The notes under the pieces are model-generated. The model saw nothing but the letters and a program-made list of their open reading frames with translations. It did not search any database and had not been told where the DNA came from. A stretch of 64,000 nt of DNA from Candidatus Kryptobacter tengchongensis (GTDB lineage: Bacteria > Bacteroidota > Ignavibacteria > Kryptoniales > Kryptoniaceae), in NCBI GenBank assembly GCA_001485605.1, contig FAON01000012.1, positions 124,001 through 188,000 of the forward strand, written 5' to 3'. Below are positions 40,602-48,081 of this stretch, one piece after another. The first letter of the stretch is position 1, and each line of letters opens with the position of its first letter. A program made the position numbers and the translations under genes.

Positions 40602-41354
40602 ATGAAAATACGCACTTTCATTTCTTTCATGATTTTACCACTCCTTTCCATCCAAGCCACAGCTCAATCCCCGCAAGAAATAATAAAAAAATCAGAAAAT
40701 CAAATAAAAGGAAAAACATCCTACGGCATCGTTGAGATGACAATAATCACCCCCGATTTTAAAAGGACTTTGAAGATGGAAGGATGGTGGATTGGAAATG
40801 AAAAAGCATTGATTGAGATAAAATATCCTAAAAAAGAAGAAGGGAACAAAACCCTAAAGATTGGCAAAGAGATTTGGCTTTACTTGCGGAATACAGAAAG
40901 TTTGATCAAAATTCCCCCATCTATGATGTTACAATCGTGGAATGGCTCCGACTTTACTTATGATGATCTTGTTCGGGAATCAAACCTTGAAAGAGATTAC
41001 GAAATGAAAATCATTTCTTCCAGCGATACTGTAAATTCTGAAATCTGCTGGAAAATAGAACTCATCCCCAAACCGCAAGCCCCCGTCATTTGGGGAAAAA
41101 TTATTTACTGGGTGAGAAAATCAGATTATTTGCCTGCAAGAATTGATTATTATGATGAAAAAGGAAAACTTGTAAGATATATGGAATTTTATGATGTGAA
41201 GGAATTCCATAGTAAAAAACTTCCTGCAAAATGGGTGATGTATAACAACATTGAAAAAGGGCGAAGAACCGAATTTACGCTAATAGATATTAAGTTTGAT
41301 ATAAAAATAGATGAAAAAATTTTCTCCTTCAAAGAACTTGAGAAAAGAAGATGA
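40602..41354 (+). CDS. LolA-like outer-membrane lipoprotein-sorting protein
   Basis: 250 residues with signal peptide (KIRTFISFMILPLLSIQATA, cut before QSPQE). The fold is the half-barrel of the LolA/TP0789 group: RTLKMEGWWIGNEKALIEI, NKTLKIGKEIWLYLRNTESLIKIPPSMM, SWNGSDFTYDDLVRES and a C-terminal TEFTLIDIKFD strand. It starts the five-gene group lolA-like/permease/permease/ATPase/barrel and ends 4 bp before the first permease. The family carries lipid-modified cargo across the periplasm. This type differs from classical LolA and probably serves a dedicated exporter. Confidence 0.88.
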   Translation: MKIRTFISFMILPLLSIQATAQSPQEIIKKSENQIKGKTSYGIVEMTIITPDFKRTLKMEGWWIGNEKALIEIKYPKKEEGNKTLKIGKEIWLYLRNTESLIKIPPSMMLQSWNGSDFTYDDLVRESNLERDYEMKIISSSDTVNSEICWKIELIPKPQAPVIWGKIIYWVRKSDYLPARIDYYDEKGKLVRYMEFYDVKEFHSKKLPAKWVMYNNIEKGRRTEFTLIDIKFDIKIDEKIFSFKELEKRR

Positions 41355-41358
41355 AATC

Positions 41359-42585
41359 ATGTTCTTCTTAAAAATTGCATGGCGAAATATATGGAGAAAC
41401 AAGCGAAGAACAATTATCACTATTACCGCCATTGCCTTCGCTACCACTATAACGGTTATAATGAGAGGGATACAACTCGGAACCTATGATTACCTCATAC
41501 GAACAATAGCGGGCAATTATTCTGGTTATATTCAGATCCAAAGCAAAGGATACAGCGAAGATCCATCTCTTCGTAAAACATTTATATATTCCGATGAAAT
41601 AAAAAAGATAATTAAATCAACCCCCGATATTATAGCCTATGCCCCAAGGTTATACGCTGATGTAATGATAAGTTCGGGTGAAAATTCTTACGGTGGGATA
41701 ATTTACGGGATTGATCCAGAAATTGAGTTCAATTTTTCAAATTTCCACAAGAAAATAAAACATGGAAGATTTTTACGCAAAGATTCTTCTTACGAGGTTC
41801 TCCTCGGGGATAAGTTATTTGAAAACCTGAAAATCAAACTCGGTGACGAAATTATTATACTTAGTCAAGGCTTTGATGGAGCTTTATGGGATATGAAATT
41901 CAAAGTTGTTGGTGTTATAAAACTTGGCTATACAGAGCTTGACAATGCTGTTATATTTATGAATTTAAAAGACGCACAGGAATTTTTATCTGCGGAAAAT
42001 AGAGTTAGCGTCATAGCAATTTTGATATCAGAACTTGAAAAAATAGAAAAAATCAAACGAAAACTTTCAGAAGAACTCAACTCTAAAAGTTTAGTTGCCT
42101 TATCCTGGGAAGATGTGATGGTTGAATTAAAACAATCAATTGAGTTTGACAATGCAAGTGGAGTTTTGTTTCTGGCATTTTTAATTATAATAGTTGCTTT
42201 TGGAATTCTCAATACGATATCAATGTCAGTCGTCGAAAGATTCAATGAATTTGGCATATCTCTTGCGATAGGTTTTAAAAACCAAAAGCTTGTCTTGATT
42301 GTTTTACTTGAAATCCTTTTCATCGTCCTCATAGGTATATTGCTTGGAAGTTTACTTGGTGGAATTTTTAATTATTACCTTATAAAAAATCCAATAGTTC
42401 TCACAGGCGATTTCGCTTCAGTATATGAGGAGTTTGGTATTGAGCCAAAATTTGTCTCTTCTTTGAAACCAAGGATATTTATAAATACCGGATTATCCAT
42501 TTTGATTGTTTCACTCATTTCAAGCGTAATCCCACTTTATAGAGTTTACAAACTTGAGCCATTAAAGGGAATAAGGTTTACATGA
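41359..42585 (+). CDS. LolC/E-like ABC transporter permease 1 (FtsX/MacB fold)
   Basis: 408 residues from ATG 41359, five bases after the LolA-like stop; an ATG at 41311 lies inside that gene. The N-terminal IAWRNIWRNKRRT is the typical cytoplasmic start of this class. Helix one is followed by a large periplasmic MacB_PCD domain (to about residue 265) and three C-terminal helices. It overlaps permease 2 by 4 bp (ATGA). With the ATPase at 43804-44490 it forms a LolCDE/MacB-type mechanotransmission exporter, extracting substrate from the outer leaflet of the inner membrane. Confidence 0.9.
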   Translation: MFFLKIAWRNIWRNKRRTIITITAIAFATTITVIMRGIQLGTYDYLIRTIAGNYSGYIQIQSKGYSEDPSLRKTFIYSDEIKKIIKSTPDIIAYAPRLYADVMISSGENSYGGIIYGIDPEIEFNFSNFHKKIKHGRFLRKDSSYEVLLGDKLFENLKIKLGDEIIILSQGFDGALWDMKFKVVGVIKLGYTELDNAVIFMNLKDAQEFLSAENRVSVIAILISELEKIEKIKRKLSEELNSKSLVALSWEDVMVELKQSIEFDNASGVLFLAFLIIIVAFGILNTISMSVVERFNEFGISLAIGFKNQKLVLIVLLEILFIVLIGILLGSLLGGIFNYYLIKNPIVLTGDFASVYEEFGIEPKFVSSLKPRIFINTGLSILIVSLISSVIPLYRVYKLEPLKGIRFT

Positions 42586-43793
42586 TTTTGAAACTTGCAT
42601 GGCGAAATATATGGAGAAACAAGCGAAGAACGCTTATCGTGATGCTTTCAATTATTGTGAGTGTTTCAGTTCTTTTACTTGTAGACACTTTATCAGTCGG
42701 TATGGTAAAGCAAATGCTTGACAATCAGATCAACATCCACATTTCGCACATACAGGTGCATAAAAAGGGATTTAAAGATGATAAAACAGTTAAAAATTAT
42801 ATTCCAGATGATTTAAAAGTTGAAAAAGCGATAACTGAAACAAAAGAAATAAAATCTTACAGCAAACGCATAATAACTTATGGAATGATAAATAGCGCAT
42901 ATAACTCTTCATCTGCTATCATAGTTGGAGTTCAACCCGACAAAGAAAAATCCATAACGATAATATCAAATTCAATATCCAAGGGGAGATACCTTGAAAA
43001 TGAGAACGAAATTTTATTGAGTAAAAAACTTGCGCAAAAATTAAATGTTGAAATTGGAGACAAAGTTGTTCTTATGGTTTCGGATGTTGATGGAAACATC
43101 TCCTCAGAACTTTTTAGAGTTGTTGGACTTTACGAATCGCCATATTCAGAATTTGACAAACTTCATGTATATATTGTGATTCAAGATGCGCAGAAAATTT
43201 TAAAACTTGATGATAAAGTTATTGAGTTTGCTATAATAGTTAAAGATTCAAAGTATGTAAACCATGTTAAAGAAAGACTTGTCCAAAAACTTGGTGATTT
43301 ATATGAGGTTTTAACATATGCAGATGTCGCCCCGTTTATAAGCATTATGCTTGATATATATTATCAAATGATATGGATTTATTACCTTATTTTCGGAGTT
43401 GCTGTTTGTTTTGGAGTCATAAACATAATGCTTATGTCTGTTTTTGAAAGGGTAAGAGAGTTTGGTGTGCTTAAAGCAATAGGAATGAAAAATAAAGACA
43501 TTTTTTTGTTAATAATGACTGAATCATTTATTATTGGTGTTCTTGGGACTATTATTGGGCTTGCACTTGGATTTGCGCTTTATATACCACTTTCAAAATC
43601 TGGAATTGACCTCGGAATTTTCGCAGAAAGCTTGGCGTGGTATGGAGTCGGAAGAGTTATCTACCCGGTTTTAACCAATTTCACACTTGCTCTTGTAGCA
43701 TTCACTATGCCGTTCATGTCCTTGATTGGAGCAATCTATCCAGCTGTTAAATCAATTAAAATTGAACCAGTTGAAGCCATAAAATATATCTGA
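42582..43793 (+). CDS. LolC/E-like ABC transporter permease 2 (FtsX/MacB fold)
   Basis: 403 residues, same architecture as permease 1: LAWRNIWRNKRRT start, one helix, a periplasmic domain and three C-terminal helices (INIMLMSVFERVREFGVLKAIGMKNKDI is the conserved FtsX segment). The first 37 bases of the shared motif are identical in the two genes at the DNA level, although the rest has diverged widely (see findings). The stop lies 10 bp before the ATPase start. Confidence 0.9.
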   Translation: MILKLAWRNIWRNKRRTLIVMLSIIVSVSVLLLVDTLSVGMVKQMLDNQINIHISHIQVHKKGFKDDKTVKNYIPDDLKVEKAITETKEIKSYSKRIITYGMINSAYNSSSAIIVGVQPDKEKSITIISNSISKGRYLENENEILLSKKLAQKLNVEIGDKVVLMVSDVDGNISSELFRVVGLYESPYSEFDKLHVYIVIQDAQKILKLDDKVIEFAIIVKDSKYVNHVKERLVQKLGDLYEVLTYADVAPFISIMLDIYYQMIWIYYLIFGVAVCFGVINIMLMSVFERVREFGVLKAIGMKNKDIFLLIMTESFIIGVLGTIIGLALGFALYIPLSKSGIDLGIFAESLAWYGVGRVIYPVLTNFTLALVAFTMPFMSLIGAIYPAVKSIKIEPVEAIKYI

Positions 43794-43803
43794 AAAAAAA
43801 TTT

Positions 43804-44490
43804 ATGACAATAATTAAGACGGAAAATTTAACAAAAATCTATTCTGACGGAAAAGTTGAAGTGGTAGCTTTAAAGGATGTCAGCCTTGAAATTTTGTCTG
43901 GTGAATTCATTGTAATTGCAGGACCATCTGGCTCTGGCAAAACAACACTTTTAAATCTAATCGGTGGGCTTGATAAACCAACCAAAGGAAAGGTCTATCT
44001 TGAAGGCAAAGATATAACAGTGATGAAAAGAGAGGAACTTTCGGATTTAAGATTAAGAAAAATTGGCTTTATTTTTCAAGCTTATAATTTAATTCCTGTT
44101 TTGACCGTTTTTGAAAATGTGGAATTGCCACTTGTTTTGCTTGGGATTTCAGAAAAAGAGAGATTTGAAAGAGTTATGGAAGTTTTGAAAGCCCTTGGTA
44201 TAGCAGAACTTGTGAATAAAAAACCAAATGAAATAAGCGGGGGACAACAGCAAAGGGTCGCAATTGCAAGAGCAATTGTTACAGAACCAGCAATAGTTCT
44301 TGCAGATGAACCAACAGCACACCTTGATTCAAAAACGGGTGGAATGTTAATTGATATAATGCAGGAAATGAATCAGACACGAAGAATAACTTTTGTGATC
44401 TGCTCACACGACCCACAGGTAATTCAAAGAGCAAGAAGATTAATTAAATTAAGGGATGGGATGGTTGAAAGCGATGAAAAGTTATGGTAA
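43804..44490 (+). CDS. LolD/MacB-like ABC transporter ATPase
   Basis: 228 residues. Walker A GPSGSGKTTLLNLIGGLDKP, Q-loop FIFQAYNLIPVLTVFENV, signature ISGGQQQRVAIARAIV, Walker B IVLADEPTAHLDSKTG and the H-loop CSHDP. The QAYNLIPVLT segment and the length match the LolD/MacB subclass. It powers the two permeases directly upstream. The end overlaps the barrel gene by 17 bp. Confidence 0.93.
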   Translation: MTIIKTENLTKIYSDGKVEVVALKDVSLEILSGEFIVIAGPSGSGKTTLLNLIGGLDKPTKGKVYLEGKDITVMKREELSDLRLRKIGFIFQAYNLIPVLTVFENVELPLVLLGISEKERFERVMEVLKALGIAELVNKKPNEISGGQQQRVAIARAIVTEPAIVLADEPTAHLDSKTGGMLIDIMQEMNQTRRITFVICSHDPQVIQRARRLIKLRDGMVESDEKLW

Positions 44491-45712: not shown

Positions 45713-47263
45713 ATGATGATAGATAAACCACTTTCTCCAGAACCAATTGTAAAACTCGTTAAATATTTCCCTAACCCATTTAAAAATGTGATTGCAACAG
45801 CAAGAACCTGTTATTCATCAAAGGGGATAATAAAAGACGAAGATATTGACCTTAACAAATACATTGATCTTGCAAAAAGTATTTATGAAGCTGGACATCA
45901 TACGACCTTTCAACATGCACATTTTCAATTCGCTATTGAAAATGTCTCAAGATATTTCATCTGGTCATTTCTTCACAGTCACCCGTTTTACAACTCAGAA
46001 CAGGTTTCACAAAGATATGTAGAGGTTAAACCGGGCAATTACTTTATACCACCGCTTGATGCGAAGGCACTTGAAATTTATATATCAACCGTTGAATTCC
46101 AAAATGAGGCATATAAAAAATTAACAGATATTCTTCTTCCCATCGTTGAAAGCGAGTATTATAAAAGATTTCCGGCACGAAAATTCAATCAGGAGAAATA
46201 TAAAAGAGATATAAAAAGAAAAGCACAGGAAATTGCCAGATATGTCCTCCCAATTGCTACATTTGCATATCTTTACCACACCGTAAGCGCAATTACAATT
46301 TTAAGATATTACAAACTCTGCAATCAATTTGATGTCCCGTTTGAACAGAAAATCGTTGTTGGGAAATTAATTGATGAGATTTTAAAAGTTGATCCAAACT
46401 ACAGAATCGTCCTTGAAGAACCAATTGACGAAAAAGATCTTGTTGAATTTAATTTTGTCCAGAGTTTGGAAGGAAGCAACTTATCAAAAGAATTTGCAAA
46501 AGAATTTGACAAATCGCTCAACGGTAAAATTTCACTTTTAATTGACTACAAACCCAACGCTGAAAAAATCCTCGCTGACTCTGCAAGGGAGATATTTGGA
46601 CTACCATCAACTGCTCTGAGCGATGACGAAGCGATAACACTTATTTTAAACCCATCAATAAATAAAATCCTTGCTGAATCTCTTGTCCTTACAACACACA
46701 GCAAGATTTCAAGGGCAATGTTTCATGTTTCATATACATTTAAAAAGAAATTGAGCCACACAGCGGACTCCCAAGATCAAAGGCATCGCATGACCCCAGC
46801 GTCAAGACCAATTTTAATGTGTCAAGTTTCGGATGAGCCGGATTTCATAACCCCTGCTTTAATTTTGCAAAATGATTTAGCCTTTAAATTTTACACAGAG
46901 GTAATGGAAAAAATTTGGGAAAACATTAACAAATTAAGAAGCCTGGGTGTTCCACCAGAATTTGCGCTTTATCTTTTGCCAAACGCTGTTAGCATAAGAT
47001 TCACAGAATCAGGTGATCTTTTAAACCTACATCACAAATATGCGATGAGACTCTGCTATAACGCACAAGAGGAGATATGGCGTGCCTCGTTTGAGGAAGT
47101 TCAGCAAATTTCCGAGATTCATCCAAAGATCGGCAAATTCCTTCTCCCTCCGTGCTCAATCAGGGAAATCGCAAATGTAAAACCCATTTGCCCAGAAGGA
47201 CCAAGGTTTTGCGGTGTGAAAGTATGGAAATTAAAACCAAATGAGTATTCAAGATCAATATGA
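45713..47263 (+). CDS. Double-length (tandem) ThyX-like FAD-dependent thymidylate synthase
   Basis: 516 residues, twice the usual ThyX length. Each half looks like a ThyX domain. Half one: GHHTTFQH at 61-68 and the degenerate signature SHPFYNSEQVSQRY at 89-102. Half two (from about 275): THSKISRAMFHVSYTFKKK and an intact RHR at 357-359, but with a shortened tail (RHRMTPASRP) in place of NExSxRY. ThyX uses FAD, NADPH and methylene-THF to methylate dUMP. It overlaps the DUF2400 gene by 4 bp. It may act as a pseudo-dimer with split active sites; activity on dUMP is inferred. Confidence 0.8.
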   Translation: MMIDKPLSPEPIVKLVKYFPNPFKNVIATARTCYSSKGIIKDEDIDLNKYIDLAKSIYEAGHHTTFQHAHFQFAIENVSRYFIWSFLHSHPFYNSEQVSQRYVEVKPGNYFIPPLDAKALEIYISTVEFQNEAYKKLTDILLPIVESEYYKRFPARKFNQEKYKRDIKRKAQEIARYVLPIATFAYLYHTVSAITILRYYKLCNQFDVPFEQKIVVGKLIDEILKVDPNYRIVLEEPIDEKDLVEFNFVQSLEGSNLSKEFAKEFDKSLNGKISLLIDYKPNAEKILADSAREIFGLPSTALSDDEAITLILNPSINKILAESLVLTTHSKISRAMFHVSYTFKKKLSHTADSQDQRHRMTPASRPILMCQVSDEPDFITPALILQNDLAFKFYTEVMEKIWENINKLRSLGVPPEFALYLLPNAVSIRFTESGDLLNLHHKYAMRLCYNAQEEIWRASFEEVQQISEIHPKIGKFLLPPCSIREIANVKPICPEGPRFCGVKVWKLKPNEYSRSI

Positions 47264-48081
47264 AAATAAAAATTCCGGATGAATTTTCCTCGCTTAAAGA
47301 TTACCTTGATTGGCTTTTTAAAAAGTATAACACGCCAGACTTCATAAATTCAGACCCCATAAAGTTTGTCCATCGCTTCTCAAAGCCAGAGGATATGGAA
47401 ATAGCTGGATTTATTGCATCACTTCTCGCAATGGGAAACAGGAAGATAATTTTGTTAAGTAATGAACGACTATTTGACCTTATGGAAAACCGACCCTATG
47501 AGTTTATTTTGAACTTTGATCCATTTTGGTATGAGAAAAGTTTGAGCAATTTCGTTCATTTCGCTTATAGAAACATTGAGGGTAAGGATTTACTTGTGAT
47601 ATTTTACCTCTTGAAGCAAACAATTGAAAAATACGGAAGATTAAAAAACCTCTTTTTGAAATATTATGACGATAAGCATCCAACAGTGAAACAGGCGCTT
47701 TCTGGATTTGTGAGGGAAATTTTATCTTTTGATCCGCCACCAAAGTTTAACGGCATACCTGAAAGCATAAATGGACTCATCCCAGACCCAGAGAAAAACA
47801 GCCCTTGTAAGCGCCTTAACATGTTCTTGAGATGGATGGTGAGAAAAGATCAAGTTGATGTTGGAATTTGGAATGAAATTGATAAATCAAAATTAATAAT
47901 ACCACTTGATACACATGTTTCTAAAATTTCACGAGCACTTGGACTAACTCAAAGAAAAACAGATACATGGAAAACAGCTGAAGAAATTACAAACAATTTG
48001 AAAAAATTTGAGCCCGAAGATCCCGTTAAATATGATTTCGCCATCTTCGGGCTCGGTATAGAATTAAAACAAGTATATTAA
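47260..48081 (+). CDS. TIGR02757/DUF2400 family, HhH-GPD glycosylase-like protein
   Basis: 273 residues. IAGFIASLLAMGNRK near residue 50, DPPPKFNG, a KRLNMFLRWMVRKDQVDVGIW segment and IIPLDTHVSKISRALGLT are the family marks, with DPVKYDFAIFGLGI near the C-terminus. The DTHVSKISRALGL stretch resembles the catalytic Asp motif of HhH-GPD DNA glycosylases (Nth VDTHIFRV). The C-terminal Fe-S cysteines of Nth are absent. Function unproven. Its ATGA overlap with the tandem ThyX shows co-translation. It ends with a 4-bp overlap with the convergent Spy-like gene. Confidence 0.85.
   Translation: MKIKIPDEFSSLKDYLDWLFKKYNTPDFINSDPIKFVHRFSKPEDMEIAGFIASLLAMGNRKIILLSNERLFDLMENRPYEFILNFDPFWYEKSLSNFVHFAYRNIEGKDLLVIFYLLKQTIEKYGRLKNLFLKYYDDKHPTVKQALSGFVREILSFDPPPKFNGIPESINGLIPDPEKNSPCKRLNMFLRWMVRKDQVDVGIWNEIDKSKLIIPLDTHVSKISRALGLTQRKTDTWKTAEEITNNLKKFEPEDPVKYDFAIFGLGIELKQVY

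Follow-up and report, generated by a model that had tools for sequence, protein, structure and literature searches.

The genome of Candidatus Kryptobacter tengchongensis carries a gene for a double-length protein, hereafter tandem ThyX, in which the residues of the ThyX active site are divided between two halves. We consider it likely that this protein consists of two fused ThyX copies that share the work of the active site and act as a flavin-dependent thymidylate synthase. Its activity, oligomeric state and number of sites are inferred from its sequence and from published ThyX structures.

Gene and predicted fold

The gene was located in a stretch of 64,000 nucleotides (the window), and its features are listed in Table 1. 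The Thy1 family of Pfam (PF02511) matched twice along the protein (181.7 bits, cut-off 24.8). When the sequence was split, residues 1-255 scored 108.6 bits and residues 256-516 scored 77.9 bits against the same cut-off. The NCBIfam thyX model, TIGR02170, scored 103.5 bits (cut-off 87.9), and the Pfam search gave no match to PF00303 (Thymidylat_synt, ThyA) in this protein.

An AlphaFold2 model of the whole protein, made from 79 relatives, had a pLDDT of 91.3 and a pTM of 0.89. Half 1 of this model (residues 7-242) could be superimposed on M. tuberculosis ThyX with a Z score of 15.1 over 209 residues at 3.1 A. Modelled alone, half 2 had a pLDDT of 86.5, with its RHR stretch below 50, and ThyX occupied rows 1-47 of its 50 structural matches. 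The best of these had a Z score of 14.7 over 184 residues at 2.4 A, and Z dropped to 2.6 after the ThyX entries. This top match was the atypical ThyX of C. glutamicum NCHU 87078 (3fnn, 3ge9), a single-copy protein that is dispensable for thymidylate synthesis according to the entry titles. Direct identity between the two halves was 16%, and hhalign profile comparisons of half 1 with half 2 and with canonical ThyX gave low probabilities. By prediction, tandem ThyX contains two ThyX folds in one chain. A preliminary description of this DNA had proposed a ThyX-like fold twice within the 516 residues, and the Pfam scores and Z scores of both halves support that proposal.

The stop of the tandem thyX gene overlaps by 4 bases with a DUF2400 gene (window 47260-48081, + strand; Pfam). 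DUF2400 was found downstream of tandem thyX in 3 of 80 loci, all from Kryptonia, these loci being the best 80 of 187 relatives. Directly upstream, at window 41311-44490 (+), two putative permease genes, recognised by eye, and an ABC ATPase gene (Pfam) form a set resembling a lipoprotein or efflux exporter. When 11 window genes were compared with the same 80 loci by tblastn, no conserved neighbours were found outside the closest relatives.

Table 1. Features of the tandem ThyX gene in the window (Mtb, M. tuberculosis ThyX; subunit roles are predicted)
Feature	Window position	Strand	Basis
Tandem ThyX gene	45713..47263	+	Single ORF, ATG start, 516 aa; Pfam and NCBIfam matches
Half 1 Thy1 domain, residues 14-229; putative B and C subunit roles	45752..46399	+	Pfam; fold Z 15.1
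GHHTTFQH, residues 61-68; H62 = Mtb H69 (Tm H53), T64 = Mtb S71	45893..45916	+	Mtb alignment
R80 = Mtb R87, subunit C dUMP contact	45950..45952	+	79/79
HSHPFYNSEQVSQRY, residues 88-102; RHR lost, SQRY kept	45974..46018	+	Mtb alignment; alignment A1
R176 = Mtb R172 (Tm R147)	46238..46240	+	Half 1 only, 79/79
Linker joining the two folds, residues 243-270; helical for the most part in the model	46439..46522	+	AlphaFold2 model
Half 2 Thy1 domain, residues 276-471; putative A subunit role	46538..47125	+	Pfam; alone, fold Z 14.7
QDQRHR, residues 354-359; FAD motif RHR, Q at the Tm Q75 position	46772..46789	+	Q354, R357, H358, R359 in 79/79
R446 = Mtb R199 (Tm R174), A-subunit dUMP contact	47048..47050	+	79/79
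C448, C481, C493, C500 (PPC-x11-CPEGxRYC tail); possible metal site	47054..47212	+	Each 79/79

Division of active-site residues between the halves

Conservation was assessed in an alignment of 79 rows (A1) comprising the window protein and 78 of the best 80 of 187 confirmed relatives. Two relatives were left out of it, L026, which is cut by a contig end, and L077, whose match does not lie in a single frame. A second alignment (A2) held 46 rows, namely the window protein and 45 of the 78 relatives, and residue equivalences were taken from alignments to M. tuberculosis (Mtb) ThyX.

In half 1, HSHP (residues 88-91) stands where RHR would be expected, and EQVSQRY follows at residues 96-102. The preliminary description had noted GHHTTFQH, EQVSQRY and the replacement of RHR by SHP, all of which the sequence shows. 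Half 1 keeps HHTxxQH throughout A1, with H62, T64, Q67 and H68 invariant in all 79 rows, as are S99, R101 and Y102, the equivalents of Mtb S105, R107 and Y108. At the positions of Mtb R95, R97 and R199, the half 1 rows mostly have S89, P91 and C203 (at the R199 site, C203 or another residue). H90, the equivalent of Mtb H96, is retained, so that H96 is common to both halves.

Half 2 has QRHR at residues 356-359 and no SxRY downstream, as had also been described from the sequence. The counterpart of R176 in half 2 is variable (L419 in the window protein). All 79 proteins, namely the window protein and the relatives aligned from the best 80 of 187, had SQRY in the first half and QRHR in the second, and the contiguous motif RHRx7SxRY was present in none of them (0/79). 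Chance or a damaged gene is excluded as the cause by this uniform split. The contiguous motif was found in 30 of 30 ordinary ThyX proteins of the same phylum, a control that is partly built in, because these proteins had been selected from loci by that motif. Fifteen ordinary ThyX proteins were aligned, five of which (L116, L119, L121, L122 and L123) had been chosen without the motif. All five kept SxRY, and four kept RH, with KH in L122.

We considered whether DQRHR of half 2 might be the counterpart of SQRY, and rejected this. The spacing from Q354 to R357 is that of Q75-R78, residues 349-358 lie in a helix after a strand in the model, and the alignments place DQRHR on the canonical RHR.

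The published structures assign these residues to different subunits. One ThyX site uses residues of three subunits (PMC6514825). Subunit A gives RHR and R199, subunit B gives S71 and R190, and subunit C gives R87, Q103 (backbone), S105, R107 and Y108; the RHR arginines and R199 bind FAD and dUMP in known ThyX (PMC6514825). PMC3498832, which describes 222 symmetry, has one monomer contributing Gln-75 together with the R174 equivalent and a different monomer contributing Ser-88, and PMC11940539 places H53 on a third monomer.

On this basis, we counted Q75, R95, H96, R97 and R199 as A positions, and H69, S71, R190, R87, S105, R107 and Y108 as B and C positions, H69 being assigned to B because it lies two residues away from S71. 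Half 2 keeps 5 of 5 A positions and 0 of 7 B and C positions (Fisher p 0.0013; 12 positions). For half 1 the corresponding counts are 1 of 5 and 6 of 7, which was not significant (Fisher p 0.072; 12 positions). At least one half keeps 11 of the 12 positions. The exception is R190, a B residue kept by neither half (I, L or V in half 1, mostly L in half 2), and an invariant R198 lies one helix turn beyond its position. R87 is a weak marker, since its position is occupied by P in 12 of the 15 ordinary ThyX proteins aligned.

Predicted assembly and mechanism

Set against these subunit roles, the residues suggest that half 2 is an A-type subunit and that half 1 serves as both B and C. The R172 equivalent should then come from B or C, as it is kept in half 1 only. 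In the proposed mechanism, RHR of half 2 would bind FAD and R446 would contact dUMP. Half 1 in its B role would supply H62 and T64 to the FAD/folate pocket, and in its C role it would supply R80, S99, R101 and Y102 to dUMP. The chemistry would be that of ThyX, running from CH2-THF to reduced flavin and then to dUMP, and yielding dTMP and THF.

Two tandem chains would pair to form a pseudo-tetramer. If the four sites of the 222 tetramer are written as A(B,C), B(A,D), C(D,A) and D(C,B), in the order of FAD, B-role and C-role subunit, the placement of the halves would determine which sites are complete. Putting the two halves 2 in positions A and B, or in A and C, would make every site incomplete. 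If halves 2 instead occupied A and D, leaving B and C to halves 1, two sites would be live, and the other two would be dead with all roles misfilled. The A/D placement would be the sole one agreeing with the residues. This placement would also explain the residue losses, since almost all of the lost residues would serve dead sites only. Each live site would draw on a single half 2 and a pair of halves 1, so that the active enzyme would be expected to comprise two tandem chains. The preliminary description had proposed that the halves complement each other as a fused pseudo-dimer. The residue losses do match the published roles, but one half 1 plus one half 2 would be insufficient for a site.

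Relatives and a second tandem type

Scanning genomes yielded 187 confirmed relatives, and the best 80 of them were retained. The titles of these 80 include Kryptonia, Ignavibacteria, Nitrospirota, Acidobacteria, Planctomycetota, Verrucomicrobia, Omnitrophota, Gemmatimonadales, Myxococcales and others, although single taxonomic placements may be wrong because many of them are metagenome bins. The closest among the best 80 were from Kryptonium and Chrysopegis (81-88% identity). The 78 aligned relatives from this set were 54-88% identical to the window protein, with some 85 invariant columns. Many distantly related bacteria share this divided double-length ThyX. Within the phylum, 247 genomes were searched, and the tandem gene was found in 9 of the 105 that bear Thy1.

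The Thermomicrobium roseum DSM 5159 protein WP_012643046.1 is also tandem (42% identity over 97%). It has the same division and the same four cysteines as the window protein, but it is encoded on a 918-kb plasmid, and it differs from the window protein at R365 and H441. Databases label it merely as FAD-dependent thymidylate synthase.

A second tandem type was found in the phylum of the window genome (L124 and L125, in genomes G018 and G073). It likewise has two Thy1 domains, and it shows the same division, with STRY in half 1 and QRHR plus the R199 equivalent in half 2. It differs in sequence (20-22% identity by half), in the absence of the four-cysteine tail and in having D at the Q75 position, which is Q354 in the window protein. 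We built a tree of 57 rows from 21 tandem proteins and 15 of 39 ordinary ThyX proteins, with no row for L077. The halves 1 (91/60), the halves 2 (96/87) and the ordinary ThyX proteins (92/50) each clustered; branches were long and drew a program warning. With moderate support, this tree suggests that the two tandem types diverged after fusion and division had taken place, and one origin of the division is favoured, though not proven. A phage origin was rejected, as none of the 12 matching phage records was tandem or covered more than 47% of the protein.

Two further proteins of the same phylum, L129 (G090) and L130 (G157), are single-copy ThyX with an insert of ~340-360 residues inside the catalytic loop. 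The insert, whose ends read QEFC ... HN-SQRY, looks like an intein.

Thymidylate synthases in genomes with tandem ThyX

In the source genome, which is 98.7% complete, the only Thy1 matches were the two halves of tandem ThyX, and neither ThyA (PF00303) nor DHFR was found. The search for another thyX or thyA suggested in the preliminary description thus revealed no normal copy elsewhere, and both halves match ThyX. None of the 9 tandem genomes (94-100% complete) had ThyA, whereas it was present in all 20 Thy1-less genomes checked in this phylum, the first 20 listed of 142. DHFR exceeded its cut-off in none of the 9 tandem genomes (one had a weak match below it), in all 20 genomes with ThyA and in 6 of the 16 single-ThyX genomes, these 16 having been chosen by hand. 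According to PMC1971073, ThyX gives THF rather than DHF, and many ThyX bacteria have no DHFR. The absence of DHFR here fits ThyX activity for both of these reasons.

Among the best 80 of 187 relatives, whose genome completeness is not stated, 77 genomes had no PF00303 match and 79 had no further Thy1 match above the cut-off. In the exception to the latter, a second, ordinary ThyX split in two frames (L115, G278:C74) accompanies the tandem gene, and the break may reflect decay, misassembly or contamination. The three genomes with PF00303 matches had weak partial ones (33-40 bits). Weak partial ThyA matches of 33-41 bits, covering about positions 92-223 of the model, were noted in G288:C230, G315:C77, G322:C39 and C46, and G014:C60. 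The ORFs are some 300-360 aa long, and that of G014 adjoins a full ThyA. They would form a ThyA-like family.

Taken together, these counts indicate that tandem ThyX is probably the cell's thymidylate synthase. It had been argued beforehand that a sole synthase must be functional. The argument is strong but not absolute, since the genome also has a thymidine kinase gene, which makes salvage possible.

That gene is also one of the two points in favour of another role, namely a ThyX-like methylase acting on another pyrimidine nucleotide, comparable to PolB on UMP, with dTMP supplied by salvage or by an unknown synthase. The other is that PolB, a UMP/dUMP methylase with the ThyX fold, was among the fold matches (Z 14.1). 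However, tandem ThyX is the sole recognisable thymidylate synthase in all 9 complete tandem genomes checked, and these genomes lack DHFR, which many ThyX organisms also do without (PMC1971073). Moreover, the gene stands alone, with neighbours unconserved outside the closest relatives, unlike a gene of a biosynthetic cluster. We therefore regard such a methylase as quite improbable. We would give equally little weight to catalysis by half 1 alone, for example with another grip on flavin, next to a degenerate half 2 with a structural or regulatory role. Half 1 does have the higher Thy1 score (108.6 vs 77.9 bits) and keeps SxRY and H62, but it is without both RHR arginines and R199, the residues with which characterised ThyX enzymes bind FAD and dUMP. 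Half 2, on the other hand, retains exactly RHR, R446 and Q354 in 79 of 79 proteins while its other roles are lost, and a merely structural half would not need these residues. Neither half has the canonical contiguous motif, as might be expected of a dead or decaying duplicate, but among the best 80 of 187 relatives, 78 have an intact gene (the other two are L026 and L077), and the level of identity and invariance reported above makes decay barely conceivable.

Comparison with known ThyX

We return to the reading of tandem ThyX as a flavin-dependent thymidylate synthase. Both halves match Thy1 and fold, by prediction, like the ThyX of T. maritima (TM0449) and M. tuberculosis, and jointly they hold the equivalents of RHR, SxRY, H53, S/T55, R147, R174 and Q75. 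The differences are that tandem ThyX has two copies per chain, neither with the full set, and an extra four-cysteine tail in half 2. ThyX is a homotetramer with 222 symmetry and four sites, whereas we predict a two-site pseudo-tetramer for tandem ThyX. Because the contiguous signature is divided between the halves, we class tandem ThyX as a variant and not as an ordinary member. We found no description of it in the open-access literature searched, including PMC9931769, PMC5954106 and PMC10733785.

Where no other thymidylate synthase exists, ThyX is essential, and it is under study as a target for drugs. The suppliers of residues in its three-subunit site are known from homotetramers, in which one mutation alters all four sites. 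With the FAD and dUMP roles on separate halves, each would be changeable alone, which would permit testing whether two sites suffice. Double-length proteins annotated simply as FAD-dependent thymidylate synthase form a distinct class, spread over many phyla.

Four-cysteine tail of half 2

The cysteine tail of half 2 is perhaps a metal site, for which its conserved cysteines make it a candidate, and zinc would be likelier than an iron-sulfur cluster. A broader reading would hold that tandem ThyX is an ancient, widespread class in which a flavin half and a nucleotide/folate half specialised after fusion, that its activity requires a pseudo-tetramer of two chains in which exactly two sites are live, and that the cysteines bind a metal, possibly an iron-sulfur cluster feeding electrons to flavin in place of NADPH. 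Taken as a whole, we consider this reading unlikely. The four cysteines were also present in the T. roseum protein, and in that protein and L126-L128 they are the only four of half 2. Exactly four cysteines occurred within the last 260 residues in 47 of the 79 proteins.
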